Source: Bacteroidales bacterium | GTDB taxonomy: Bacteria > Bacteroidota > Bacteroidia > Bacteroidales > VadinHA17 | Length of the DNA stretch: 32,121 bases | NCBI GenBank assembly: GCA_023251395.1 | Contig: JAHEYW010000003.1 | Span: forward strand, 14,527-46,647 | Direction of reading: 5' to 3' | Part shown: positions 7,178 through 31,952 of the stretch, piece by piece | How positions within the stretch are numbered: position 1 is the stretch's first letter | Layout of the letters: each line of letters starts with the position of its first letter | Notes under the pieces: model-generated | Database searches by the model: none | What the model was told of the DNA's origin: nothing | Seen by the model: only the letters and a program-made list of their open reading frames with translations | Position numbers and translations under genes: made by a program

Positions 7178-7263
7178 GGGAAGACAGGAAATCTTTAGGT
7201 TGCCAGGCAAGGGCACAGGAACACTATGAAAGGCTGTCTTGCCTGAGGCGCCCCCCCTTTGTC

Positions 7264-7359
7264 CCCACTGGAAGGTGGGATAATGCCTTGTTATTTAAAG
7301 AGACCGTCAAAAAGATAGAGGTATTCTCTCCCCTCTTGGGGGGAGAAACCGCGAAGCGG
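7264..7359. repeat. Cluster of G/C palindromes downstream of the GH16-like gene
   Basis: Three inverted repeats follow each other: CCCAC/GTGGG (7264-7279), TCTCCCC/GGGGAGA with a six-base loop (7327-7346), and CCGC-GAA-GCGG (7349-7359). The second and third form the same two-hairpin arrangement as 21783-21817, so this is one copy of a dispersed palindromic element. The rest of the 277-base gap (7132-7408) holds the ECF promoter and nothing else I can identify. Confidence 0.6.
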
Positions 7360-7408
7360 AGAGGGTGCTGTTACTGTAAAGAGAAATACTACTAATCAGA
7401 AGAGAGTG

Positions 7409-8824
7409 TTAGCTCTTAACCTGATACACCCTAACCCAGTCAATCTCCATTGTGGAAGATCCGGAAATTGGTTTGTCGAGGCCGCCGGCCAGGTTAATAT
7501 ACATAGGTTCCTGAGGAACATTTTCAGTCTGCTGAAACGCAACAACGCCATTAACCTTCCAGATGAGAGAACTTGCTGTCCATTCAAGTGTAAAGATGTA
7601 ATGATCGTTAGCATACCTTGACCCTATGGAAGATTTTGCGGAGTTGCTTACAGAGGAAAATAAGTCGAACCATACTTTTCCTTTGGACGTCCTGCAAATA
7701 TCGATATGTGGTGTGATCTTGTCAGCCAGGAGCCAGAATGCGCTTTTTGCACCAGGGTCACCGAGTTTTATTTTTGCGGAGAAGACTCCGTATTTCTGTC
7801 TGAAACTGATGCTGGAGTTAATAATGCCGGATGTATAGTCAAAATCTTTCTGGTTGAATCCATGAGCAGCTGACCATACTTTACCTTTGATTTTCTGAGC
7901 TTTGGTAACAATTTTAAGATTGCTTCCTCCGAGCTGGAAATTATCTTTTTCTGTATAGAAGTGAAGATCGGATTCAACAGAGTATCTGTCATGAAGAAGC
8001 TTCTCTCCCCAGTAGTAGTTGGTGAGCCATTTTTTTGTATCAAGCTTGTCTGAATCAAATTCCTCACTGAATAAAAGCTCACGGTGCTTCAGAATATCGA
8101 ATTTATTTGAATCCTTAACCTTGAAATACCAGATTATGTCAGGATCTTTTTTAAGCTTTCCGAATTCCTCAAGATCCTTGAACATGTCGGTCTTTTCAAA
8201 TCTTTTCTTGTCGAGGAGATATGCTTTTTTCTCTGCAAATTCTTTTGATTCAGTGTAGGTTTTAAGCTCTGCAAGTTTATCGAGCTTCTTTGATCCGGCA
8301 ACACTTTTATAGTTTGCAAGCTCCCTGGAGGCTTTGAATTTGTAATAATCTTTAATCTCCTGACTGCCTTTCAGCTGTTTATATTCATCGATCTTTTTAA
8401 AATCTTCACTTTCCTTAAATTCTTTTGTCTTGCTTTTTTCCCTGAAATCTGAAGACTGGACAAGTTTTTCAAGCGCCTCAAATTTGCTGATCTTCTCAGA
8501 CCCGTCAAGGGCATTGAATTTCTTCAGTGCTTCGCCTTCGAACGTCTTGAAATAAAGGACAATATCCTTTGACTTTTTCAGGGAAATATATTCTTTTTCC
8601 TTAGCATATTCGTCAGAGCTTTTATACTGAAGACCTTCAATGTCTTTCTTCTTCTGAATAAAATCGGAAGAACTGACCTTCGTATTCAGTTCATTGTATC
8701 TCTTTAACTGATCAGAATCCGAAAAAGCCTGCAGCTTTTCATACTCTGCAACAAGAGCTTTTTCTTCCTGCTCAATTTTAGAAGTAGCGGGGATCATTCC
8801 CAGTAAAAACTTGAGACTTGCCAT
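7409..8824 (-). CDS. GH16-fold protein with lost catalytic residues and repeat-rich N-terminus
   Basis: A 471-residue protein in two parts. Residues 1-255 are Lys/Glu/Ser-rich helical sequence with about three 70-residue repeats starting near 69, 139 and 211; each carries a pattern like EYxxLKxSxDIxxYFK. Residues 256-471 have the beta-jelly-roll of glycoside hydrolase family 16: LLFSEEFDSDKLDTKKW, a SAFWLL strand (361-366), TLEWTASSLIWKVNG and the final EIDWVRVYQ. The catalytic signature E-I-D-I-x-E is replaced by HIDICR (373-378), so both catalytic glutamates are gone and only Asp375 remains. It is therefore probably a glycan-binding or structural protein, not a laminarinase. No signal peptide is seen. 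The ATG at 8824 is chosen because a near-consensus -7 box (8852-8859) falls inside the longer frame, which would start at 8896. Confidence 0.72.
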   Translation of the reverse strand: MASLKFLLGMIPATSKIEQEEKALVAEYEKLQAFSDSDQLKRYNELNTKVSSSDFIQKKKDIEGLQYKSSDEYAKEKEYISLKKSKDIVLYFKTFEGEALKKFNALDGSEKISKFEALEKLVQSSDFREKSKTKEFKESEDFKKIDEYKQLKGSQEIKDYYKFKASRELANYKSVAGSKKLDKLAELKTYTESKEFAEKKAYLLDKKRFEKTDMFKDLEEFGKLKKDPDIIWYFKVKDSNKFDILKHRELLFSEEFDSDKLDTKKWLTNYYWGEKLLHDRYSVESDLHFYTEKDNFQLGGSNLKIVTKAQKIKGKVWSAAHGFNQKDFDYTSGIINSSISFRQKYGVFSAKIKLGDPGAKSAFWLLADKITPHIDICRTSKGKVWFDLFSSVSNSAKSSIGSRYANDHYIFTLEWTASSLIWKVNGVVAFQQTENVPQEPMYINLAGGLDKPISGSSTMEIDWVRVYQVKS

Positions 8825-8973: not shown

Positions 8974-9726
8974 ATGAAAAGCTGGTTAATTACAGGAGTA
9001 TTACTTCTGGTTTCAAGATGGGTTCCTGCCCAGCAGTTGTCTGCCACAGAAATTATTAAGAAAGCAGACGACAGATTCAATGGTGAAAGCTCAGGTATAA
9101 GCACTATGGAAATGACCGTAATCCGTCCCACATGGCAACGGAAAGTGGAATTTAAAAGCTGGTCTCAGGGACGCGAGAATTCGCTTACTCTGATAACTGC
9201 CCCTGCGCGTGATCAAGGGCAGACCTTTCTCAAAAGAGAGCAGGAGATGTGGACCTGGAACCCGGCAATAAACAGACTTATTAAGCTTCCTCCTTCAATG
9301 ATGTCTCAGGGATGGATGGGTTCCGATTATACAAACGATGACATTCTCAAAGAATCATCTGTTGTAAAGGACTATACGCATGAAATTGTGGAAGAAGAAA
9401 CGATCAATGGCAGTTTATGCAATAAGATTAAAATGACTGCAAAACCGGAAGCAAAGGTGGTATGGGGTCACCAGATCTGGTGGGTTGACAAAAAGGATTT
9501 CAATATACTGAAAGCCGAGCTGTATGATGAGGATGGGGCTCTGGTCAGAACAGAGCTGGGCTCTGAGATTAAACTAATGGATGGTCGTTCTATTCCGACC
9601 CGACTTGAGCTGATCCCGGCTGAAGAAAAGGGTAACAAAACAGTTGTGATAATAAAGGAAATCAGGTTTAATGTTCCTGTTGAAGACAGCTTCTTTTCCC
9701 AGCAAAATATGAAAAGGGTGCGATGA
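8974..9726 (+). CDS. LolA-like periplasmic (outer-membrane lipoprotein-sorting type) protein
   Basis: A 250-residue exported protein with a signal peptide (MKSWLITGVLLLVSRWVPAQQ). The mature part, starting with LSATEIIKKADDRFNG, has the layout of the LolA-like family labelled outer-membrane lipoprotein-sorting protein (COG2834/PF17131 type): repeated amphipathic strands such as TMEMTVIRPTWQRKVEFKSW, the phrase FLKREQEMWTWNPAINRLIK and KVVWGHQIWWVDKKDFNILK. Such proteins form a half-barrel that can shield a lipid. Its stop overlaps the start of the first permease gene (ATGA), so it is the lead gene of a five-gene operon. By analogy with LolA it would carry a hydrophobic cargo across the periplasm. 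The cargo is unknown. Confidence 0.8.
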   Translation: MKSWLITGVLLLVSRWVPAQQLSATEIIKKADDRFNGESSGISTMEMTVIRPTWQRKVEFKSWSQGRENSLTLITAPARDQGQTFLKREQEMWTWNPAINRLIKLPPSMMSQGWMGSDYTNDDILKESSVVKDYTHEIVEEETINGSLCNKIKMTAKPEAKVVWGHQIWWVDKKDFNILKAELYDEDGALVRTELGSEIKLMDGRSIPTRLELIPAEEKGNKTVVIIKEIRFNVPVEDSFFSQQNMKRVR

Positions 9727-11144
9727 AAGAGGATCTCAAAATTGCCTGGCGGAATTTGTGGAGAAGCAAAAGAAGAACTCTCATTACATCTTCATCAGTC
9801 TTCTTTGCCGTCTTCTTTGCCGTTGTAATGAGATCATACCAGCTCGGCAGCTATGACAGGATGATTCAGAATTTCATCGAATCATATTCAGGTTATCTTC
9901 AGATCCAGCATAAGGAATTTCAGGACAATCCTTCTTTGGATTATTCGTTTGATTACAGCGATTCTCTTTTTGAAAAGATATTTTCAGTGAAAAACGTTGT
10001 TTCGGCTGCTCCGCATATCGAATCTTTTGCTCTTGCCTCCAGCGGAAACCAGACAAAAGGGGTTATTGTTCTTGCTGTTGATACTGAAAAGGAAAAGAAG
10101 TTTTCTAATCCTGAAAGCAAGCTTGTAAAATATAAAATCACACAAAGGCTTATTAATAAACTCAAGATATCAGGCCAATTCCATGAGTCTGTTCTGAAAA
10201 AGTTAAACCAGGTCTCCGGGAATTCCTATTCTTCGACATCAAGACTAGACCTTGACCTGGATCTTTCGGAAGATGAAAGAAACTCTTATATGTCTGTGAT
10301 ACTTGAAGAAAGCAAAGCGACCAACAGATATCTTTCAAACCCTGATTCCGGTGTCATGGTTTCTGATAAGCTTGCTACATATCTCAAAGTGAATGTCGGT
10401 GATACGGTAATACTTATGGGGCAGGGTTATCATGGGGCCTCAGCCGCGGGGCTGTTTCCTGTCAGGGGGATTATTAAAATGCCTTCTCCTGACATTGATA
10501 ATAAACTTATTATTATGACTATCCCGACTGCCCAGAGGTTCTTTCAGACTGAAGGGAAAATTACCTCTCTGGCAATCAACCTGACCGGAAGGTCTGCCGG
10601 AGTTTTAAAAAGGTCAAGGGAAAATATTTCACAACTTCTTTCCGATAAATCGACCCTGGTAAAGACATGGGAAGATCTTAACCCTGTTCTTGTTCAGCAG
10701 ATACAGGGAGATAGTCAGACCGGCATGGCAACACTGGCCATGCTTTATTTCATCATTTTCTTCGGGATATTCGGCACTGTACTTATGATGATGGCTGAGA
10801 GGAAAAGGGAATTTGGCGTTATGATCTCAATCGGAATGCAGAAAAAAAGACTGAAAAGAATTATTGTCACAGAAATGATAATGATGGGCTTAATTGGTCT
10901 TATTGCAGGACTTTTGGCAAGCGCCCCGTTCATACTTTATTTCTATTACAATCCGATATTGCTAAGGGGTGAACTTGGCAAAATGATGGAGGATTACGGA
11001 TGGGATGCAGTAATGCCAACAGCCTGGTTTGGTCCATATTTCTACTGGCAGGCTGTAATAGTATTTATTATGATTCTGGTTGCTACACTTTATCCGATAA
11101 GGAAGATTTCAAAATTAAAGGAAATTGAGGCTTTACGGAGCTGA
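9723..11144 (+). CDS. ABC transporter permease, FtsX/MacB/LolC type (first)
   Basis: A 473-residue inner-membrane protein. The start IAWRNLWRSKRRTLITSSSV is the usual cytoplasmic amphipathic lead into the first membrane helix (about 19-37). A large periplasmic domain follows (about 40-325), then three helices near 335-355, 382-408 and 435-455, the last ending in YPIRKISKLKEIEALRS, the FtsX-family tail. The loop AERKREFGVMISIGMQKKR between helices 2 and 3 is the segment that contacts the ATPase. It uses no energy itself: it couples ATP hydrolysis to extraction or mechanical work on a periplasmic or outer-leaflet substrate. It overlaps the preceding LolA-like gene by four bases and is followed by a second, related permease. 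Confidence 0.88.
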   Translation: MKEDLKIAWRNLWRSKRRTLITSSSVFFAVFFAVVMRSYQLGSYDRMIQNFIESYSGYLQIQHKEFQDNPSLDYSFDYSDSLFEKIFSVKNVVSAAPHIESFALASSGNQTKGVIVLAVDTEKEKKFSNPESKLVKYKITQRLINKLKISGQFHESVLKKLNQVSGNSYSSTSRLDLDLDLSEDERNSYMSVILEESKATNRYLSNPDSGVMVSDKLATYLKVNVGDTVILMGQGYHGASAAGLFPVRGIIKMPSPDIDNKLIIMTIPTAQRFFQTEGKITSLAINLTGRSAGVLKRSRENISQLLSDKSTLVKTWEDLNPVLVQQIQGDSQTGMATLAMLYFIIFFGIFGTVLMMMAERKREFGVMISIGMQKKRLKRIIVTEMIMMGLIGLIAGLLASAPFILYFYYNPILLRGELGKMMEDYGWDAVMPTAWFGPYFYWQAVIVFIMILVATLYPIRKISKLKEIEALRS

Positions 11145-11157
11145 AAAACTACCGGGT

Positions 11158-12582
11158 ATGACTATATCAATCGCTTGGAAGAACGTGTGGCGGAACAGGA
11201 ACAGAAGCCTGACTGTCATTATCGCTGTTGCTCTGGGCATCATCTCAGGCGTGATGCTGATAGCGATCATGGAGGGCTGGATTGAACAACGGCTGCATGA
11301 TGCAATCTATAATGAGGCATCACATATTCAAATACATAATTCCGATTATCTGAAGAATGAGGAGATACAGCTTACTGTCGATAAAGCTCCGGAAATAATT
11401 TCAGAAGCCGGAAAGATCAATGAAATATCCGGATGGGTCATCAGGTCAAAAGTTGTCGCGATGGCAAACACCTCCTGGGCAAACACAGGGGTTTTCATTT
11501 ATGGTATTGATCCGGAAAAAGAAAAGGATGTAACAGAGATATATAAAAGAATTGTCCGGGGGGGAGGTAAGTATCTGGAAAAGAACGCACCAGGAACCAT
11601 TCTGATAAGCGATAAAACAGCCGAACTACTAAAACTTAAGCAGTACTGTCTCAGAGATGAGGTGCTCAGTAAATTAAAAGAGGTTAATATCCCGGAGAAG
11701 GTAACTATCGCATTAAAAGACATTTATGGTATTAGATTCAGATCCCCAAAGGACTTCAGTAATGCCCTGAAGGAAAAGCTCACTCGTCGACAGCTCGATG
11801 ATTATGGCAAGACAATTATGGACAGTTCGCTCGATTACAGGATCAGGAATAAAATTCAGGTTACCTTATCAGATCTGAATGGCAATCCTGTTCAGGGGAC
11901 CTTCAGGGTTTGCGGGATCTATAAGACCACAAATACAGGATTTGATCAGCAGACAGTCTATATAAATTCTGATGACCTGTTGGAACTATACGGGGGAACT
12001 TCACAACTTATTCATGAGTTTGCATTTCTTCTTTCGGATGTAAAGAAATGTGAAGAAGTGAAGGAAAAGCTGGAGCTTATTTCTGGCAAAAATAAAGTCA
12101 GCACCTGGAAAGAACTTGCTCCTGATGCAGCAATGATGAATGATTTCATGATAATGTATTATGTCATCTTCGTCGGAATAATTATGCTTGCCCTGGCATT
12201 CGGGATAATTAATACAATGATGATGGCAATTCTTGAAAGGACGAAAGAACTTGGAATGCTGATGGCAATCGGGATGAACAGAAAGCGGATTTTCAATATG
12301 ATAATGCTTGAAACAGTATTTCTGACACTGGTTGGTGCAATCGCAGGGATATTTGCGGGCTGGCTTCTTGTGGCCGTTCTGGGCAGAAACGGGATCTATT
12401 TCTCTTCATGGGGAGAAGGTTTTGAGGCAATAGGATTTGCTGCAAGAGTATATCCTGTAATCTCCCCTTCATACTTTGCATTAATAATTGTAATGGTTAT
12501 TATAACTGCAATAATTTCCTCTGTCTGGCCTGCCCGTAAAGCGCTTAATCTTGCTCCGGTTGAGGCAATAAGAACAGAATAA
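11158..12582 (+). CDS. ABC transporter permease, FtsX/MacB/LolE type (second)
   Basis: A 474-residue partner of the preceding permease with the same plan: TISIAWKNVWRNRNRSLTVI at the N-terminus, one helix, a periplasmic domain of about 300 residues, and three C-terminal helices with the ILERTKELGMLMAIGMNRKR coupling loop and the tail WPARKALNLAPVEAIRTE. The two permeases presumably form a heterodimer as LolC and LolE do. The ATG at 11158 is preferred because it starts the conserved lead MTISIAWKNVW and lies 13 bases after the previous stop; the frame stays open further upstream, to a possible earlier start at 11125. The ATPase gene follows after 22 bases. Confidence 0.88.
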   Translation: MTISIAWKNVWRNRNRSLTVIIAVALGIISGVMLIAIMEGWIEQRLHDAIYNEASHIQIHNSDYLKNEEIQLTVDKAPEIISEAGKINEISGWVIRSKVVAMANTSWANTGVFIYGIDPEKEKDVTEIYKRIVRGGGKYLEKNAPGTILISDKTAELLKLKQYCLRDEVLSKLKEVNIPEKVTIALKDIYGIRFRSPKDFSNALKEKLTRRQLDDYGKTIMDSSLDYRIRNKIQVTLSDLNGNPVQGTFRVCGIYKTTNTGFDQQTVYINSDDLLELYGGTSQLIHEFAFLLSDVKKCEEVKEKLELISGKNKVSTWKELAPDAAMMNDFMIMYYVIFVGIIMLALAFGIINTMMMAILERTKELGMLMAIGMNRKRIFNMIMLETVFLTLVGAIAGIFAGWLLVAVLGRNGIYFSSWGEGFEAIGFAARVYPVISPSYFALIIVMVIITAIISSVWPARKALNLAPVEAIRTE

Positions 12583-12604
12583 TTCAGCTTAAAAAAGACC
12601 CAAT

Positions 12605-13291
12605 ATGAAGGTAATAGATATAAAAGAAGTTCACAAAGTATACGATGAAGAAGAAATTGCTGTAAAAGCAGTTGACGGAGTGACATTATCTTTTGATGAG
12701 GCAGAATTTGTGGCAATTGTCGGACCATCCGGCTCTGGTAAAACAACCTTGCTTAACCTGATTGGCGGCCTCGACATGCCAACAGAAGGGGAGATTGTTA
12801 TTGCAGGTACCAACCTCTCGACACTAAAACCCTCTGGGCTCATAGATTTCCGGCTGAATAATATAGGCTTTGTGTTTCAGGCATATAACCTGGTTCCTGT
12901 TCTTACTGCAAAAGAGAACGTGGAATTCATTATGTCGTTGCAGAAATGGTCAAAGCACGACAGGGAGTTAAGATCTGATGAATTACTGAAAGCTGTCGGG
13001 CTTCTTGAAAGGAAGAACAGCAGACCCGGGAAGCTATCGGGAGGCCAGCAGCAGAGAGTTGCGGTTGCCAGGGCACTGGCGTCAAGACCGAAGTTCGTTC
13101 TTGCTGATGAACCAACAGCGAACCTCGATTCAAAATCCGCTGCGACCCTCCTGGAGATTATGGAAAAGCTGAACCATGGAGAAAAGATCACATTTATCTT
13201 TTCAACCCACGATCCGCGTGTCGTCAAAATGGCTCACAGGGTTATTACACTTGAAGATGGCAAAGTCGTTTCGGATGATGTCAGGGAGTAG
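12605..13291 (+). CDS. ABC transporter ATP-binding protein (LolD/MacB type)
   Basis: A 228-residue ATPase with Walker A GPSGSGKTT (40-48), Q-loop at Gln92, signature LSGGQQQR (144-151), Walker B FVLADEP (164-170) and switch His202 (STHDP). Length and the phrase LNLIGGLDMPTEGEI are typical of the LolD/MacB/FtsE clade, which works with FtsX-type permeases for lipoprotein or envelope transport instead of solute uptake. It sits directly behind the two permeases and 19 bases before the barrel gene, so it is the motor of this cassette. Identity as ATPase is certain; the substrate is not. Confidence 0.94.
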   Translation: MKVIDIKEVHKVYDEEEIAVKAVDGVTLSFDEAEFVAIVGPSGSGKTTLLNLIGGLDMPTEGEIVIAGTNLSTLKPSGLIDFRLNNIGFVFQAYNLVPVLTAKENVEFIMSLQKWSKHDRELRSDELLKAVGLLERKNSRPGKLSGGQQQRVAVARALASRPKFVLADEPTANLDSKSAATLLEIMEKLNHGEKITFIFSTHDPRVVKMAHRVITLEDGKVVSDDVRE

Positions 13292-13310
13292 CCATCAATT
13301 CTTCAATCTG

Positions 13311-14459
13311 ATGAAAAAGATTCTGCTTATTTATATTCTTTCTTTTATTTTCCAGATACAATTATTGCCTCAGGACCCAGGTAAGATCACACTTAACGGT
13401 TATATTACCAGTATGCAAAGTGTGATGTTCGACTCGCTAAAAGGGAATTATATCAACCAGAACATGATCCATAACAGATTGAATTTCAAGGCATATTTTA
13501 ACGACAACATTACTTTTGGACTGGAGATACGCAACAGGCTGTTCATGGGTGATATGGTAAAAACCAACCCATGGTTTGCAACAAGCACGGGATTTGATCC
13601 CGGAGTTGCAGATCTTTCATGGAATCTGATAAATGAAAGATCAGTTCTTCTGAACACATCAATTGACAGGTGCTGGCTGGATTTGAATTATGGAAAAGTA
13701 CAGGTGAAGTTAGGCCGGCAGAGGATAAACTGGGGACAAACGCTCGTGTGGAATCCTAATGACATTTTCAATGCCTATTCTGTATTTGACTTTGATTATG
13801 TTGAACGGCCCGGAAGTGATGCGATAAGGATTCAATATTATCCGGGTACAGAATCGACCGCCGAGGTGGCAATTAAATCAGACAGAGATAATAAAATCAC
13901 CGCAGCCGGGTTGTACAGGTTTAACAGGAAGAGCTATGATATTCAGTTTTTTGCGGGATATTTTCAAGGTGAGGATATTGTTGCAGGGACAGGCTGGTCT
14001 GGTTCTTTCGGGGGAATATCTTTCAGGGGAGAGGCAACCTGGTTCCAACCCGCCAGCCATTTTTCAGATACAACCGGGAGAGGGATATTCACAACAGGTT
14101 TTGATAAGGTCTTAAAGGACAATTCTTCAGTGCAGTTACAGATAATGTACTGTAATGATCCGTTAAAACTCACAAATTTTGATTCTCTCTATAAAGGCGA
14201 TCTATCATCCAAAGATCTTGCTTTTTCGAAGTTTTCAGCATACGGGCAATATTCATATCAGGCAATACCCTTGCTGAACATAGGTGTTTCCGGGATGTGG
14301 CTTCCTGATCTGAATGGTTTTTTTGCCGGGGCCTCAGTGGAATATTCAGTAGCTGAAAATCTGGATGTTTCGTTTATCTGGCAGCACTTCAATACTGAGG
14401 TGAAAGCTTCCAGAAGCAGTATTAATATGTGCTTCCTGAGAATGAAATGGAACTTCTAA
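13311..14459 (+). CDS. Outer-membrane beta-barrel protein of the ABC cassette
   Basis: A 382-residue exported protein starting MKKILLIYILSFIFQIQLLPQ (signal peptide), with amphipathic strands throughout and a C-terminus ending FLRMKWNF, as expected for an outer-membrane barrel. The conserved-looking core KLGRQRINWGQTLVWNPND, followed by a FDYVERPGSDA phrase (about residues 134-171), recalls DUF1302/alginate-export-like barrels. The frame is open back to 13176, but that would overlap the ATPase gene by over 100 bases and hide the signal peptide, so the ATG at 13311 is used. It is the last gene of the five-gene operon and may be the outer-membrane end of the pathway. Its pore function is inferred from fold only. 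Confidence 0.72.
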   Translation: MKKILLIYILSFIFQIQLLPQDPGKITLNGYITSMQSVMFDSLKGNYINQNMIHNRLNFKAYFNDNITFGLEIRNRLFMGDMVKTNPWFATSTGFDPGVADLSWNLINERSVLLNTSIDRCWLDLNYGKVQVKLGRQRINWGQTLVWNPNDIFNAYSVFDFDYVERPGSDAIRIQYYPGTESTAEVAIKSDRDNKITAAGLYRFNRKSYDIQFFAGYFQGEDIVAGTGWSGSFGGISFRGEATWFQPASHFSDTTGRGIFTTGFDKVLKDNSSVQLQIMYCNDPLKLTNFDSLYKGDLSSKDLAFSKFSAYGQYSYQAIPLLNIGVSGMWLPDLNGFFAGASVEYSVAENLDVSFIWQHFNTEVKASRSSINMCFLRMKWNF

Positions 14460-22926: not shown

Positions 22927-23991
22927 TTGAAAACGAAATATAAAATAATTGTTACTGCTCTTCTTCTGATCTTCTCAGCAACAGTTACTGCTTTTTCCCA
23001 GGAAGAAAAATCTGGAGCTCCCGAAAAGAAGGAATTCAATGCCAGCGAATTTATTCTTGAACATGTGACTGATTCGCATGAATGGCATATTCTCACACTT
23101 AAAGATGGGGAAAACATTGCTCTTTACCTTCCGGTGATATTATATACTAAAGAAAAAGGATTCTCCCTTTTCTCATCAAAAAGAATCGCTGAAGGCAGGA
23201 TTTATAATGGTTTTAAGCTTGAAGAAGAAGGAGATCTGAAAGGAAAGATCGTTTGTGTGAATGAAAATAACGAAGCTGATGAGAAAAATCTGCCATTCGA
23301 TTTTTCAATCACCAAGACTGTCTTTGCTATGATGTGTGCAGCCCTTTTAGGACTCATTATTTTTATTTCCATGGCAAGATCTTACAAAAAGACCGGGGTG
23401 AGCGCCCCAAAGGGTATTCAGAGCTTGCTTGAACCTGTGATCCTTTTTGTTCGTGATGATATTGCTATTCCAAATATTGGTCATCATAAATATGAAAAAT
23501 ACATGCCCTATCTTCTTACAGCATTTTTCTTTATCCTGATGAACAATCTAATGGGTCTGATCCCGTTCCCGCCACCCTTTGGCGGAAACGTAACAGGTAA
23601 TATTAATGTGACCTTTGTACTGGCCTTTTGTACATTCCTCATAACCCAGTTCAGCGGGAACAAAAATTACTGGAGGCACATATTTGCAACCCCGGGAGTT
23701 CCTGTCTGGCTCCTGCCGGTAATGATACCTGTCGAACTCATGGGAATCGTTTCAAAACCTTTCGCCCTGATGATCCGTTTGTTTGCGAATATTACAGCAG
23801 GTCATATCATCGTGCTAAGCCTTGTCTGCCTGATCTTTGTTTTTCAGTCTGTAGCTGTGGCACCCGTTTCAATAATATTTGTGATTTTCATGGACTGCCT
23901 CGAACTTCTGGTGGCATTCCTTCAGGCATATGTTTTCACCCTGCTTTCAGCGCTGTTTATCAGCCTGGCGGTACAGGAGGAGCATCATTAG
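22927..23991 (+). CDS. atpB: ATP synthase F0 subunit a
   Basis: A 354-residue a subunit. Residues 1-24 (KYKIIVTALLLIFSATVTAF) look like a signal peptide, followed by a periplasmic extension of about 100 residues, as is usual in Bacteroidota. The conserved core follows: PYLLTAFFFILMNNLMGLIP, the essential Arg284 in MIRLFANITAGH, and the final QAYVFTLLSALFISLAVQEE. Arg284 is the residue that faces the c-ring carboxylate in the proton path. The start is TTG at 22927; no ATG is in frame upstream and the signal peptide begins there. It lies 12 bases after the AtpI-like gene. Confidence 0.95.
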   Translation: MKTKYKIIVTALLLIFSATVTAFSQEEKSGAPEKKEFNASEFILEHVTDSHEWHILTLKDGENIALYLPVILYTKEKGFSLFSSKRIAEGRIYNGFKLEEEGDLKGKIVCVNENNEADEKNLPFDFSITKTVFAMMCAALLGLIIFISMARSYKKTGVSAPKGIQSLLEPVILFVRDDIAIPNIGHHKYEKYMPYLLTAFFFILMNNLMGLIPFPPPFGGNVTGNINVTFVLAFCTFLITQFSGNKNYWRHIFATPGVPVWLLPVMIPVELMGIVSKPFALMIRLFANITAGHIIVLSLVCLIFVFQSVAVAPVSIIFVIFMDCLELLVAFLQAYVFTLLSALFISLAVQEEHH

Positions 23992-24006
23992 TTTTTTAAC
24001 GTTTAA

Positions 24007-24231
<225 letters not shown>

Positions 24232-24238
24232 AGGAACT

Positions 24239-24268
24239 GAAGGCTGCAACGGTTGGTTGCAGCTCTTC
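24239..24268 (+). promoter_or_regulatory. Intercistronic stem-loop between atpE and atpF
   Basis: GAAG-GCTGCAAC, a five-base loop, GTTGCAGC-(T)-CTTC: twelve base pairs with a single bulged T. It follows the atpE stop and precedes the atpF ATG by 26 bases, without a T-run. It may slow 3'-to-5' decay of the atpE end of the message or partly reduce atpF expression, which would help make more c than b subunit. Confidence 0.6.
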
Positions 24269-24294
24269 ATTTTAACAGATCAAAAACAATAAAT

Positions 24295-24807
24295 ATGATA
24301 TTAGCTAATAGTCTGGCAACTCCCGCAATAGGTACAATTTTCTGGACCGTACTTATCTTTGGCCTCTTCTTTCTCCTTCTGGCCAAATTTGCCTGGAAGC
24401 CGATACTTAGTGCCGTAAAAGCAAGGGAAGAAATTATCAAGGGTTCTCTCGAAGCTGCTGAAAGAGCAAGAGAGGATATGAAAAAGCTTCAGACAGACAA
24501 TGAAGCTATTCTCCGTAAAGCGCGTGAAGAGAGAGAGAACATACTCAAAGATGCAAGAGAAATCCGTGACAAAATGATCAATGAGGCGAAGGAGAAAGCA
24601 TCAGAGGAAGGAGAAAGACTCATTGAAAAGGCTCGTCTGGGAATTGAAAATGAGAAAGAGAAAGCTCTTTCCGAAATTCATCAGCAGGTCGCATATCTTT
24701 CAGTGGAGATTGCATCAATGCTGCTTGGGGAGAAACTGAAGGAAAGCGATGAACAGAACAAGCTGATTGACCATTACCTGAAAGATATTGACCTGAATAA
24801 AAACTAG
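24295..24807 (+). CDS. atpF: ATP synthase F0 subunit b
   Basis: A 171-residue stator subunit: one membrane helix near the N-terminus (about 11-31, GTIFWTVLIFGLFFLLLAKF), the short motif AWKPIL, then a long helical, charged region forming the coiled-coil stalk (VKAREEIIKGSLEAAERARE onward). The usual length is 155-175. The frame stays open to 24253, but that would start inside the hairpin with an unlikely leader, so the ATG at 24295 is used. The delta gene follows after 13 bases. No second b subunit is present. Confidence 0.94.
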   Translation: MILANSLATPAIGTIFWTVLIFGLFFLLLAKFAWKPILSAVKAREEIIKGSLEAAERAREDMKKLQTDNEAILRKAREERENILKDAREIRDKMINEAKEKASEEGERLIEKARLGIENEKEKALSEIHQQVAYLSVEIASMLLGEKLKESDEQNKLIDHYLKDIDLNKN

Positions 24808-24820
24808 GTATAAATCCGAA

Positions 24821-25372
24821 ATGAACGACAGCAAGATATCAGTCAGATATTCACGGGCTTTATTTCAGCTTGCAGTTGAGAAGAAGATGCTCGACAAAGT
24901 CAATACTGATATGATCTTTATTTCTGAGATCTGCAGGATTAAGGAAGTAAAGGAAGTGCTCGACAGCCCTATAATTGTACCATCAAAGAAAAAATCAATT
25001 TTAGCTGCTGTACTTAAAGATAATGTTGAGAAAATGACCCTTTCTCTTATTGAACTGCTTGTCAAAAATGGAAGGGAAGGCCACCTTCCTGCTGTTGCAA
25101 GGGTCTTTGTCGATGAAACAAGAAAATACAACGGCGTAACTGAAACTTCACTTATTACTGCAATTCCCGTCAATGACAAGGTAAGAAAGCAGATGACTGA
25201 CCTGATTTCATCGGCATTTAAAACCAAAGTAGAGCTTAAAGAGACTGTAGACAAGGATATCATCGGCGGTTTCATTCTAAAAGTGAATGACAATTTCATT
25301 GACGCCAGTGTAAGGAATAAACTCAGGAAGATCAAAAAGGAACTTTCTTACAATCCTTCCATAAAAGAATAA
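24821..25372 (+). CDS. atpH: ATP synthase F1 subunit delta
   Basis: A 183-residue stator protein joining the b dimer to the top of F1. The family opening is seen in SVRYSRALFQLAVEK, and the C-terminal motif VDKDIIGGFILKVNDNFIDA (about 146-165, with the 'GGxxLxVxDxxID.S' pattern) is clear. Length matches the family (about 175-185). It is between atpF and atpA in the standard order, with a 29-base gap before atpA. Confidence 0.95.
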   Translation: MNDSKISVRYSRALFQLAVEKKMLDKVNTDMIFISEICRIKEVKEVLDSPIIVPSKKKSILAAVLKDNVEKMTLSLIELLVKNGREGHLPAVARVFVDETRKYNGVTETSLITAIPVNDKVRKQMTDLISSAFKTKVELKETVDKDIIGGFILKVNDNFIDASVRNKLRKIKKELSYNPSIKE

Positions 25373-25401
25373 GGAATTTAGCGAATATTAAGTAAATATA
25401 T

Positions 25402-26982
25402 ATGGCAAATATCAAACCAGCAGAAGTATCAAAGATCCTCAAACAACAGCTTGAAGGTGTTCAGACTGGCGTGGAATTGGAAGAAGTCGGTACAGTCCTT
25501 CAGGTGGGAGACGGAATTGCACGTATCTACGGGCTGTCAAATGTACAGTCGAACGAACTCATCGAGTTTGAAAATGGTATCGAAGCAATTGTGCTCAACC
25601 TTGAGGAAGATAATATTGGTGCTGTTCTCCTTGGCCCGACAGAAGAAATAAGCGAAGGAGACATTGTTAAGAGAACAGGCAGAATTGCTTCAATAATGGT
25701 TGGAGAAGGGCTGCTTGGCAGAGTTATTGCACCTACTGGTCAGCCTCTTGATGGTAAAGGGCCGATCACCGGCGAACTTTTTGAGATGCCGTTTGAAAGA
25801 AAAGCTCCCGGTGTTATTTATCGCCAGCCGGTGAAACAACCTGTTCAGACCGGAATAAAAGCCATCGATGCAATGATCCCGATCGGCAGGGGACAGCGTG
25901 AGCTTATTATCGGAGACCGCCAGACAGGAAAGACAGCTATTGCTATTGATACAATTATAAATCAGCGTAGCAATTACGAAAAAGGGAAACCGGTATATTG
26001 TATCTATGTGGCCATTGGCCAGAAAGGTTCAACTGTTGCAAATATTGCAGCCACCCTTGAAACACATGGTGCCCTGAAATATACAACAATAGTTCTTGCA
26101 ACAGCATCAGACCCGGCTGCCTCACAGTTCTATGCCCCGTTTGCCGGTGCTGCAATAGGTGAGTTCTTCCGCGATACTGGCCGCGACGCGCTGATAATAT
26201 ATGACGACCTTTCCAAACAGGCTGTTTCATACAGGGAAGTTTCCCTCCTGCTTCGCCGTCCACCAGGACGTGAAGCATATCCGGGTGACGTATTCTATCT
26301 TCACTCACGCCTGCTGGAAAGAGCAGCCAAGATCATTGAATCTGATGACGTTGCAAAACAGATGAACGACCTTCCTGAATCAATAAGACACATGGTTAAA
26401 GGTGGTGGTTCACTCACAGCTCTTCCAATTATTGAAACACAGGCAGGTGACGTATCAGCGTATATTCCAACAAACGTGATCTCAATAACCGATGGTCAGA
26501 TATTCCTTGAATCAGGCTTGTTCAATGCAGGCGTTCGTCCTGCGATCAACGTTGGTATTTCTGTATCAAGGGTAGGAGGAAATGCACAGATAAAGGCGAT
26601 GAAGAAAATTGCCGGTACCCTGAAGGTTGACCAGGCTCAGTATCGGGAACTGGAAGCATTTTCAAAATTTGGTTCTGACCTCGATGCAACTACACTTGGC
26701 ATCCTTGACAAAGGAGCAAAGAACGTTGAGATACTTAAACAAAAACAGTATTCTCCGGTCCCGGTTGAAAAACAGATTGCAATAATCTACTGTGGTACAA
26801 AAGGGTTGCTGAGAGACGTTCCGATTCATAAGGTTAAGAGTTTTGAAGCAGATTTCATTGAGTTTCTGGAGCTGAAACATAAAAATGTCCTTGACTTACT
26901 TAGGGAAGGTACGCTTAACAACGAGATAACAGATACACTGGAAAAAGTAGCGGCAGAAATTGCTGCAAGATACAGGTATTAA
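25402..26982 (+). CDS. atpA: ATP synthase F1 subunit alpha
   Basis: A 526-residue regulatory nucleotide-binding subunit. Walker A is GDRQTGKT (171-178), the Walker B region is [13 protein letters not shown] (about 262-274), and the catalytic-interface Arg finger is Arg390 ([11 protein letters not shown]). The stretch [20 protein letters not shown] is the family block. The segment between the beta-barrel and the nucleotide domain ([20 protein letters not shown]) is also typical. Alpha forms the F1 hexamer with beta, but in this window the beta gene is 3.4 kb away in another unit. Confidence 0.98.
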
Positions 26983-27013
26983 TTACCGGAATTACTGAAC
27001 AAAAAGCTGGTTA

Positions 27014-27898
27014 ATGGCTAATTTAAAGATAATAAGGACCAGGATAGCGTCTGTAAAATCCACAAGGCAGATTACCTCGGCAATGAAGATGGTTTCTGCA
27101 GCCAAATTACGCAAGGCTCAGGACAAGATCGTCAGGCTGAGACCATATGCCAACAAGCTGCATGAGATACTTGTGGGTGTTTCACAAAGCCTTGTTGATG
27201 TTGAGGAAGATAATATCTATGGAAAAAAGAGAGATCCCGAAAAGGTCCTGATCATTATGATCACTTCGAACAGGGGACTCTGCGGAGGCTTTAATTCGAA
27301 TGTGGTCAAAGAAACGCGAAGAATAGTTGCGGATAAGTATCATAAACAGGCTTCCAAAGGCAATCTATGGTTTATGGCTATCGGGAAGAAAGGATTCGAA
27401 TTCCTTCGCCAGCAAAAGCTTAATATTCTTGAAGAACATAACCAGGTTTTCAATAATCTCACTTTTTCAAATGTATCCGTAATTGCAGAAAAAGTGATGG
27501 AAAATTTTGTTTCAGGTAAATTTGACAGGGTAGATATTGTCTATAACCAGTTCAAAAATGCTGCGGTACAGAATCTGACAAATGAACCATTCCTTCCTGT
27601 TGAAACAGCTCCGGCTGATCAGAAAACTGTGACGGTGGCAGATTACATTTATGAACCCACAAAAGAGGAAATTGTTAAGGAGCTTATTCCCAAATCCATA
27701 AAAATTCAGTTCTATAAAGCAGTTCTTGATTCGTGGGTAGCTGAACACGGAGCAAGGATGACGGCAATGCACAAGGCGACAGACAATGCTACCCAAATGA
27801 TCAAAGAACTCACACTGCAATATAACAAGGCACGGCAGGCCTCAATTACCAACCAGATCCTTGAAGTTGTCAGTGGTGCTGAGGCTCTTAAAGGATAG
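27014..27898 (+). CDS. atpG: ATP synthase F1 subunit gamma
   Basis: A 294-residue rotor shaft. The N-terminal helix has RTRIASVKSTRQITSAMKMV (about 7-26), and the C-terminal helix ALSGATDNA-type pattern appears here as MTAMHKATDNATQMIKELTL. Central TSNRGLCGGFNSNV is the family marker (about 84-97). It closes the first ATP synthase block, and a polyprenyl synthase gene follows after 39 bases on the same strand. The epsilon subunit that binds it is encoded beyond atpD at the window end. Confidence 0.97.
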   Translation: MANLKIIRTRIASVKSTRQITSAMKMVSAAKLRKAQDKIVRLRPYANKLHEILVGVSQSLVDVEEDNIYGKKRDPEKVLIIMITSNRGLCGGFNSNVVKETRRIVADKYHKQASKGNLWFMAIGKKGFEFLRQQKLNILEEHNQVFNNLTFSNVSVIAEKVMENFVSGKFDRVDIVYNQFKNAAVQNLTNEPFLPVETAPADQKTVTVADYIYEPTKEEIVKELIPKSIKIQFYKAVLDSWVAEHGARMTAMHKATDNATQMIKELTLQYNKARQASITNQILEVVSGAEALKG

Positions 27899-27937
27899 CA
27901 GACCGATATAGTCTTTATTCTGAAAAATACCCTCTTT

Positions 27938-28912
27938 ATGTATACTAAACCTGAACTAAAGGAATTGATAGAGAAGGCGTTGGTCAATCTTTCAATTGAT
28001 GATGAGGCTGAGAGACTTACAGCACCAATAAGATATTTCCTTTCAATTGGAGGTAAACGCCTGCGCCCGGTGATCACCCTCTTATCCTGCAATATTTTTT
28101 CCGATAAGGTTGATGGTGCCATTCTTCCTGCATTAGGAGTAGAGGTATTTCATAACTTCACACTTGTACACGATGACATTATGGACAATGCCTCCCTTAG
28201 AAGAAACCTTCCGACAGTTCATACCAAATGGGGAAATAACCAGGCAATTCTTTCCGGAGATGTCATGGCATTTATAGCCAATGACTGTTTCCTTCAGACT
28301 CCTTCCAATGTCCTTTCAAAGGTCTTCACCACATTTAACAGGGCGGCAGTGCAGGTCTGTATCGGACAGCAGCTTGATATGGATTTTGAAAAGAGCCAGG
28401 TGATTTCTCATGAAGAATACCTGCGCATGATTGAACTGAAAACAGCAGTTCTTCTTGCAGCTTCAGCCAAAATAGGCGGTATAATTGGAGGTGCCGGGGA
28501 AAAAGATTGTGATCACCTTTATGAATTCGGCAGGAACCTCGGACTTGCATTCCAGATCCAGGATGATCTTCTGGATGTATACGGGGATGTTAATGTTTTT
28601 GGTAAAATATCCGGAGGTGATATTGTCACAAATAAAAAAACCTTTCTGCTGGTAAAGGCTTTGGAAACAGCAGGCGGCAGCACATTGAAAAAGCTGCAGG
28701 AGACAATTGCTTTAAAGGAATTTGAACCTGCAGAAAAGATCAAAGCAGTTGTTGAGATCTATAACGAGCTGAAAATCAAGTCACATACAGAGATCCTTGC
28801 AGAAGATTATATTTCATCCGCAATAGAAAATCTGGAGAAGGTAAGTGCTGAAAAGGAAAGGAAAAAAGAGTTGCTTCAGGTTGCTACCTCTCTGAGTGGC
28901 AGGAGAAAATAA
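27938..28912 (+). CDS. Polyprenyl diphosphate synthase
   Basis: A 324-residue trans-prenyltransferase that lengthens an allylic diphosphate with isopentenyl diphosphate. The motifs are GGKRLRP (38-44), the first Asp-rich site DDIMD (79-83), GQQLDMDFE (143-151), and the second site DDLLD (209-213) in FQIQDDLLDVYGD. The residue five before the first site is Phe74, which may limit product length, so a short to medium chain (FPP/GGPP range) is possible but a quinone side-chain enzyme cannot be excluded. It follows atpG by 39 bases and may be transcribed with the ATP synthase genes. There is no other isoprenoid gene in the window. Confidence 0.93.
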   Translation: MYTKPELKELIEKALVNLSIDDEAERLTAPIRYFLSIGGKRLRPVITLLSCNIFSDKVDGAILPALGVEVFHNFTLVHDDIMDNASLRRNLPTVHTKWGNNQAILSGDVMAFIANDCFLQTPSNVLSKVFTTFNRAAVQVCIGQQLDMDFEKSQVISHEEYLRMIELKTAVLLAASAKIGGIIGGAGEKDCDHLYEFGRNLGLAFQIQDDLLDVYGDVNVFGKISGGDIVTNKKTFLLVKALETAGGSTLKKLQETIALKEFEPAEKIKAVVEIYNELKIKSHTEILAEDYISSAIENLEKVSAEKERKKELLQVATSLSGRRK

Positions 28913-28916
28913 TTAT

Positions 28917-29120
28917 TCAGAATTTTACATAAAAGCTTAAACTTGTAGTTGGATAAATACTTTTAGTAACATATACATTTTCATGTGAGTCTGTTTCATA
29001 AAACGTTGTTCTCCATTGCATTATTCCGAAGTCAAATTTCTTTCCAGAAAATTGGGACCATGAGACAGTTCTGCCATTCCTATTCCCAGCCGGTGAGCTT
29101 TCCCAAATTTTAGTTTCAAA
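28917..29120 (-). pseudogene. Probable fragment of an outer-membrane protein gene (C-terminus)
   Basis: On the minus strand the frame from 29120 to the TGA at 28917 is open for 67 codons and ends in SLSFYVKF, an aromatic C-terminus like that of an outer-membrane barrel. It contains SWSQFSGKKFDFGIMQWRTT, with alternating strand-like pattern. The frame is closed upstream by TAA at 29121-29123 and no start codon with a leader is visible. I could not name the family. It appears to be the tail of a decayed gene; a chance reading frame is possible. The other two frames over this stretch show no clear protein. Confidence 0.35.
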
Positions 29121-29269
29121 TTAATAAAATCCGTTCAGGACATTTCCACATGAAATTTAGAATATTTCTTTGTAAGAGTCAATATTCCAGGTTGATAGCT
29201 TATAAATCTTATCAGAAAACACACATAGCTTAATCGATGAAGAAGCACTCTACTTTCAAATATCAATTG

Positions 29270-29289
29270 CCGTCGGTTTTAACCGACGG
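29270..29289. repeat. Perfect palindrome, REP-like
   Basis: CCGTCGG-TTTTAA-CCGACGG, a 7-bp stem that extends to 9 pairs at the base of the loop, in the 200-base stretch between the gene fragment and the small barrel gene. It resembles the REP elements that accompany REP-associated transposases in Bacteroidota, though no such transposase is in the window. It could also end the transcript of the barrel gene, 38 bases downstream of its stop. Confidence 0.5.
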
Positions 29290-29326
29290 TTAGAGGAACT
29301 CTGCTCTACCGGACATTAGTCCCTCA

Positions 29327-29908
29327 TTATTGAACAACAATCTTCTTTGGATTAATATCAAACACCGCCCCTGCATTAATTACAAGCTGACGGTATTTCC
29401 CGGCAATAATTTTTGCTTCAGAATTGAGCGTGATTTTATCTGTGATTTTGAAGTTAAGTCCGGCACCGAAATTAAAACCGAGGGCATTATCCACACTCGG
29501 GGAAAATGTCCCGTCTTCCCATTTTATTTTAGCAACAGTTACATTTATACCGGCCAGTCCATACAGATCGAACCACCCGGGAGCGAAAAAGAGATAGTCT
29601 CCATCAATGTTGAACTGATATTCTCCTGTGCGTGTTGATTTATATGTAGACCCGATATCAGGAATCTTATTATCCCTCGGAATATAGAAAATAAAAGAAG
29701 GAGTGATCTGCAATGGTGTTTTGGTTTCAAAACCAGCTTTAAGATAAATTCCCAGCAAAGGAGACCTGTAAAGGTCCCTGTCGGCTGTCTCATTGTTATA
29801 ATGAAATCCTGACCCGGAATTCAAACCTATGCCGATCTTTGGAAACTGGCAAAGAGCGCCGGTAAGACATGTAAATAGAACAAATAATGTCAGGATAATC
29901 TTCTTCAT
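29327..29908 (-). CDS. Small outer-membrane beta-barrel protein
   Basis: A 193-residue exported protein with a signal peptide (MKKIILTLFVLFTCLTGALC) and a mature part of alternating strands: FPKIGIGLNSGSGFHYN, LLGIYLKAGFETKTPLQITP, FNIDGDYLFFAPGWFDLYGL and FGAGLNFKITDKITLNSEAK. This is the plan of an eight-stranded barrel of the OmpA/outer-membrane-beta-barrel group, but the ending NPKKIVVQ lacks the usual terminal aromatic. The ATG at 29908 gives the signal peptide; the frame extends to 29965 without a better start. Alone on the minus strand in a repeat-rich island between the two ATP synthase units. Function unknown. Confidence 0.75.
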   Translation of the reverse strand: MKKIILTLFVLFTCLTGALCQFPKIGIGLNSGSGFHYNNETADRDLYRSPLLGIYLKAGFETKTPLQITPSFIFYIPRDNKIPDIGSTYKSTRTGEYQFNIDGDYLFFAPGWFDLYGLAGINVTVAKIKWEDGTFSPSVDNALGFNFGAGLNFKITDKITLNSEAKIIAGKYRQLVINAGAVFDINPKKIVVQ

Positions 29909-30128
29909 TCCAAATAATTCTTTAACACATTCTTTAGTCCATGTTTGGGTTCCAAAAGATAACACTAATCTCCGTGAAAATATTGTCAGAGGAAGCAGAT
30001 TCTTAATTTAGCTCAATCTATTCAAAATGGAAAATGATTATAGATGTTTTTCAGTCAGGGGAACCAGAATACCTCCGGTGAGCTCGTTGCGACAAATCGG
30101 AACCCGGTTCTTCGCTCCACTACGTTGC

Positions 30129-30174
30129 GCTCAGAATGACTTCCCCTTCAAACCCACAGACTGTCATTCTGAGC
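30129..30174. repeat. Inverted pair of dispersed repeat GTCATTCTGAGC
   Basis: GCTCAGAATGAC (30129-30140) and GTCATTCTGAGC (30163-30174) are exact 12-base inverted repeats with a 22-base loop. Outside them, TTCTTCGCTC and AAAGAAGAATC extend the similarity. This is the widespread intergenic word found in many genomes around 'CTGAGCGAAGCGAAGAATC'. Its role is unknown. Confidence 0.6.
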
Positions 30175-30280
30175 AAAGAAGAATCTGGTAACCAATAATC
30201 TAAAACTTCAAATAGTGGACTGTCATCCGGGGCTCAGCGATAAATCTCTTTGCCATATCCTGATGTTCTAAAAATCAACC

Positions 30281-30322
30281 CTTTGTGTTCTTTGCGTTTT
30301 TCTCTTTGCGCCCTTTGTGGTT
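30281..30322 (+). repeat. Degenerate decamer tract (CTTTGTGTTC type)
   Basis: Four successive ten-base units: CTTTGTGTTC, TTTGCGTTTT, TCTCTTTGCG and CCCTTTGTGG. The same word family occurs in the inverted repeat at 4455-4497. A dispersed repeat with this look is common in Bacteroidota intergenic DNA. Confidence 0.45.
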
Positions 30323-30403
30323 TAAATGGATCTCTTTCGTTAACAATTAAGATATAATAACAATTAAATCAGACTTACTCTCTTCTTCAAATACAAAATT
30401 TAT

Positions 30404-30411
30404 TAAATTTG
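30404..30411 (+). promoter_or_regulatory. Probable promoter of atpD-atpC
   Basis: TAAATTTG matches TAnnTTTG, 32 bases before the atpD ATG in a very AT-rich stretch. No -33 TTG at 17-23 bases. Because atpD and atpC are detached from the other ATP synthase genes they need a promoter of their own, and this is the best candidate. Confidence 0.5.
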
Positions 30412-30437
30412 TATCTTCTGAAAAAAATATAAAATAA

Positions 30438-31952
<1,515 letters not shown>

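Follow-up and report, generated by a model that had tools for sequence, protein, structure and literature searches.

The question raised by this locus is what a protein with the fold of a GH16 enzyme does once both catalytic glutamates have been replaced. The locus lies in a Bacteroidales bacterium (VadinHA17; assembly GCA_023251395.1, contig JAHEYW010000003.1, positions 14,527-46,647 of the forward strand), and the whole stretch of DNA that was analysed, 32,121 nt, is called the window here. The gene occupies 7409..8824 on the minus strand and is a real open reading frame of 471 aa plus stop. Its start codon is the ATG at 8824, since the open frame of many relatives extends no farther than about 4 codons upstream of this ATG in the alignment. 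A first-pass annotation of this DNA described an intact jelly roll from the first strand to the final EIDWVRVYQ. This description is correct only for residues 248-469 (7418..8083, minus strand), where Pfam GH16, the model strands and Foldseek place a GH16 beta-jelly-roll domain; the coordinates of the gene, however, also span a 246-aa all-helical domain.

The homology of the C-terminal half to GH16 is well above chance. PF00722 (GH16) matched residues 311-464 with 34.4 bits, above its cut-off of 22, and the profile of the family matched the solved laminarinase 4dfs at E 5e-19. In the AlphaFold model of the full protein (mean pLDDT 92, pTM 0.71), helices extend to residue 246 and strands fill 248-469. 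Laminarinases are the top Foldseek matches of this model, with target TM values of 0.6-0.75, and 4dfs is matched at E 4.9e-16 (target TM 0.70), which agrees with the fold first proposed. The window protein thus belongs to GH16 as a sequence family by homology and, the fold being a prediction, by its jelly roll as well. Membership in KRE6/SKN1 (GH16_2) was considered and rejected, as PF03935 gave only 15.5 bits against a cut-off of 30, over residues 434-470 only.

As an active enzyme, GH16 is defined by the signature E-x-D-x-x-E (or E-x-D-x-E), and here the window protein reads HIDICR (H373 to R378; 7691..7708, minus strand). The translation includes ADKITPHIDICRTSKGK, which puts H373, D375 and R378 in the columns of E-x-D-x-x-E. 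In profile alignments with the laminarinases 4dfs, 3azx, 4crq, 6jh5 and 2vy0, the P-h-i-d-x-x-k of the family stands opposite G-E-I-D-I-M-E or its equivalent; therefore, H373 and R378 occupy the nucleophile and acid/base columns. Translation and alignments thus confirm the replacement of both glutamates.

The same loss can be observed throughout the family. Both catalytic glutamates occur together in 0 of 124 distinct members, so the window copy is not a lone mutant among intact orthologues, the case that would have counted against the first-pass annotation. The nucleophile column contains His in 94 members, Glu in 14, Gln in 11 and other residues in 5. The acid/base column contains Arg in 71 and Lys in 42 (113 together), with other residues in 11, and the middle Asp is present in 107. 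Most of the family thus keeps His and Lys/Arg at these two positions. The acid/base Glu was found in one member only (L118), whose nucleophile position is His. Other substrate-site features have also changed. The active-site His on the next strand, present in 83% of active relatives, corresponds to F389 in the window protein, 62% of the family having Phe here; the columns of the GGxW loop are gaps in 124 of 124 members. Members with one catalytic Glu left include L118, L119, L033, L038, L113, L116, L139, L140, L143, L148, L149 and L152. Four very divergent members (L167, L168, L169 and L173) retain an alignable jelly-roll frame although their motif has degenerated in part or completely.

Retaining hydrolysis by the GH16 mechanism requires two Glu. 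Because this mechanism is established, the aligned columns strongly support a loss of hydrolysis in the family. Since Lys or Arg replaces the acid/base Glu in 91% of members, mostly with His at the nucleophile position, the cleft appears to have been re-used rather than to have drifted. Family-specific invariants are W317, G322-F323, F341-R342-Q343, W422 and N425; such invariants suggest a new function, and the conserved aromatics of the family may be core residues rather than ligand-binding ones.

To trace the evolution of this loss, 91 domains were analysed with IQ-TREE; the alignment did not include the motif columns or three very divergent members. In the resulting tree, the family forms one side of a branch opposite 18 motif-intact GH16 domains (support 90, which is not decisive). 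On this tree the acid/base Glu shows two changes, read as a single loss and a single reversal, and the nucleophile position shows 16 changes; a FastTree analysis of 142 domains agrees. The acid/base Glu appears to have been lost first, and the members with one Glu left may be useful as intermediates for testing this order. The dN/dS of the GH16 half is 0.03-0.17 in close pairs with usable synonymous divergence. This half is under purifying selection; because of these values, the domain is considered maintained and not decaying. By itself the motif could resemble the decay of a lone mutant or pseudogene, but conservation across the genus and in other families of the order, together with a dN/dS well below 1, rules this explanation out, and its probability is practically negligible.

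An enzyme with a changed mechanism is another explanation, using either migrated catalytic residues or, in members keeping the nucleophile Glu, activated donors. Strong purifying selection, the conservation of H-x-D-x-x-R/K itself and the 14 members with a nucleophile Glu are in agreement with it. This Glu is patchy, however, and alternates on the tree with Gln and His, and the list of conserved columns of the 124 members shows no other conspicuous acidic pair common to the family; a changed mechanism is thus regarded as very improbable. A non-catalytic role, as the first-pass annotation had proposed in general terms, is well supported because both catalytic residues have been lost family-wide while the fold has been kept.

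The more distinctive part of the protein is the helical-repeat half, which was absent from the first-pass annotation. Residues 1-247 (8084..8824, minus strand) form an all-alpha repeat domain, for which AlphaFold gave a pLDDT of 92.6 when this part was modelled alone. The first 35 residues are an N-terminal segment (LLGMIPxTxKIE). Three units of about 70 aa, built from short helices, follow in residues 36-246, near 36-108, 108-177 and 177-246, and can be aligned with each other; each pair of units outscores 500 of 500 shuffles. The whole of residues 1-247 in the window protein is without a Pfam match; single relatives gave scattered weak matches only. Foldseek found no PDB fold for the helical domain at E<=0.001; a known fold was rejected, the best match (E 0.58) being meaningless. 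The length of relatives ranges from 328 to 907 aa, and within the genus it increases by steps of about 65-67 aa (471, 538, 602). In a 247-genome sample of the order, matches to the helical half alone came from 62 genomes; almost all lie in an open reading frame that also has a GH16 match or is long enough for a GH16 domain. One candidate repeat domain without GH16 was observed, in a 231-aa frame (G518:C112).

A secreted or lipoprotein leader peptide is usual in bacterial GH16 enzymes. No recognisable signal peptide was found in the family by a hydropathy heuristic, in which the N-terminal medians over 12 residues were 1.5 for the family and 2.85 for motif-intact GH16, with overlapping ranges. 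The first 12 residues of the window protein (MASLKFLLGMIP) are hydrophobic and could act as a membrane anchor. Outside the order, a 295-genome sample of the class contained only two related proteins, both motif-intact GH16 without helical repeats and the closest such relatives of the family; one (L156) has a lipobox-like LACSSC leader and the other (L157) a leader peptide, and both have the motif PPEIDIFE. Compared with these two, the window protein has TP-HIDICR in place of PP-EIDIFE, no member of the family has both Glu, and the helical repeats are present.

The gene context gives information on the proposed ligand, since the first-pass annotation had suggested a lectin-like sensor of beta-glucan. 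A Pfam scan of 20 window proteins, which include an ECF sigma factor, an outer membrane protein (OMP), a TcdA-like ThiF protein, LolA-like and FtsX proteins and ATP synthase proteins, found no SusC or SusD. Within the genus, the genes commonly found after this one encode an ECF sigma factor and, farther on, an anti-sigma-like protein, an OMP and the TcdA-like ThiF protein, and the LolA-like/FtsX/ABC group is divergent from it. In the window, this group lies at 8974-14459 on the plus strand and comprises co-directional genes for a LolA-like protein, two FtsX-like permeases, an ABC ATPase and a DUF1302 protein. At 22927-31952 the F-type ATP synthase a chain, alpha and a second alpha/beta-type subunit are found, with a polyprenyl synthetase between them. 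The neighbours of distant relatives were clustered, and for a few the sequence was read to identify the protein; the contexts vary, some relatives lying near ATP synthase and GT9 glycosyltransferase genes (ATP synthase genes, for example, near L102 and L118, neighbour cluster 92). The intergenic DNA just downstream of the gene, at 7260-7370, has runs of C/G and a stretch resembling an inverted repeat (CTCCCCTCTTGGGGGGAG...CCGCGAAGCGGAGAGGG), a core part of which is found once in the own genome with up to 2 mismatches allowed. The downstream sequence GGGGAGAAACCGCGAAGCGGAGAGGG was considered as a genome repeat and rejected, being single-copy in its own genome at <=2 mismatches.

A lectin of a glycan-utilisation locus was rejected, given the lack of SusC/SusD in the 20 scanned proteins and the varied contexts of distant relatives. 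A beta-glucan (laminarin) lectin or sensor comparable to insect GNBP/beta-GRP would be consistent with laminarinases as the best structural matches, and metazoan GH16 proteins without catalytic Glu have been described as beta-glucan binders (PMC6403176). Against this, the gene is outside any glycan-utilisation locus, the motif has turned from acidic to basic, the active-site His and the GGxW loop have been lost, and the heuristic, with its overlapping ranges, recognised no signal peptide. Moreover, the window protein is the only GH16 match detected in its own genome, where neither a second copy nor an active GH16 partner was found. The beta-glucan part of the earlier proposal is therefore unsupported and considered improbable, and its binding or structural part is retained.

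The protein probably binds something rather than cuts it. The explanation we favour, with some confidence, is a non-hydrolytic, probably cytoplasmic pseudoenzyme derived from GH16, in which the jelly roll would bind a ligand on a helical scaffold of variable length. The ancestor of the jelly roll would be a secreted GH16 hydrolase, and both hydrolysis and the export signal would have been lost. The protein most likely stays in the cytoplasm. Short-helix repeats, in an array of variable length that serves as scaffold or arm, would have been fused to the jelly roll. Judging from the aligned columns, the basic-motif jelly roll may bind in its cleft without cutting, a plausible ligand being an anionic or phosphorylated glycan, a glycan intermediate or a protein partner.

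The main rival to this cytoplasmic binding module is a purely structural module. The jelly roll would then hold no sugar in its cleft and would be structural or act in protein-protein contacts, and the protein would be a scaffold or spacer, with the repeats determining its length. The further-decayed motifs of divergent members (AILIFR, YISIFD, LVNIFH) with an alignable jelly-roll frame, the wide variation in repeat number, reflected in the range of protein lengths, and the window without glycan-utilisation context all point in this direction. Most members, however, hold His and Lys/Arg, which is beyond the need of a mere spacer, and a purely structural role is thus considered rather unlikely. 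A more specific form of the binding explanation, which is more doubtful still, would make these proteins an undescribed family at the level of the order, namely charge-inverted GH16 pseudoenzymes of the cytoplasm carried on a new class of short-helix repeat scaffold. They would act in Bacteroidales envelope biogenesis as intracellular readers or adaptors, recognising either an anionic glycan or a lipid-linked sugar intermediate.

Comparison with known systems indicates which features are particular to the family. The jelly-roll fold and an alignable sequence are shared with GH16 laminarinases (GH16_3; Thermotoga 4dfs/3azx, Zobellia LamA/LamC), whereas both Glu, the active-site His, the GGxW loop and, by the same heuristic, a recognisable signal peptide are missing, and a helical-repeat fusion is present. 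The N-terminal domain of insect GNBP is a carbohydrate-binding CBM39. The N-terminal half of the window protein is all-alpha and without a Pfam match, and thus is not a CBM39. In insect GNBP/beta-GRP/LGBP proteins, an N-terminal region was gained by a GH16 domain without catalytic Glu (PMC6403176), and the likeness consists of these two features; unlike the animal proteins, the family is bacterial, presumably cytoplasmic and basic in its motif. Viborg et al. (2019) reported catalytic residues to be missing in about 9% of GH16_4, 0.7% of GH16_3 and 1% of other members, and those of GH16_4 without catalytic residues are not monophyletic (PMC6827312). These scattered proteins have likewise lost one or both residues, whereas the present case is one bacterial group with a common new architecture. 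In the library of papers searched, none was found on a catalytically inactive bacterial GH16 or on this family, which is not proof of absence.

A Pfam GH16 annotation would label these proteins as glycosyl hydrolases. Because a whole group of Bacteroidales proteins would be unable to use the GH16 mechanism, GH16 counts would be misleading as evidence of beta-glucan degradation in these genomes. A conserved and usually single-copy gene under purifying selection, with an N-terminal half lacking PDB and Pfam matches and with members in cultured strains, makes the family a tractable unknown. Full-length members are present in the cultured Marinifilum flexuosum, M. breve, M. fragile, Thermophagus xiamenensis and Perlabentimonas gracilis.

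The gene was found in 35 of 36 genomes of the same genus, its own included, some copies being partial at contig ends; the sole genome without a match is 78% complete. Beyond the genus, relatives occur in several more families of Bacteroidales. At 1e-5, matches were obtained in 199 genomes of a 393-genome sample of this order, many of the weak matches being ordinary GH16 proteins, and a 396-genome sample of the phylum contained nothing at 1e-10 except the window itself. A contig scan confirmed 335 relatives, of which 80 were kept; judging from their record titles, they belong to Bacteroidales, Bacteroidota or named genera of them, except two MAGs labelled Atribacteria and Chlorobiota, which are likely mislabelled bins. 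Because the distribution was taken from genome samples and the search scored only the best first-look candidates, a restriction of the family to Bacteroidales is likely rather than proven. In two MAGs from fen metagenomes (L071 and L105) the gene lies in two overlapping frames, which reflects a frameshift or an assembly error.
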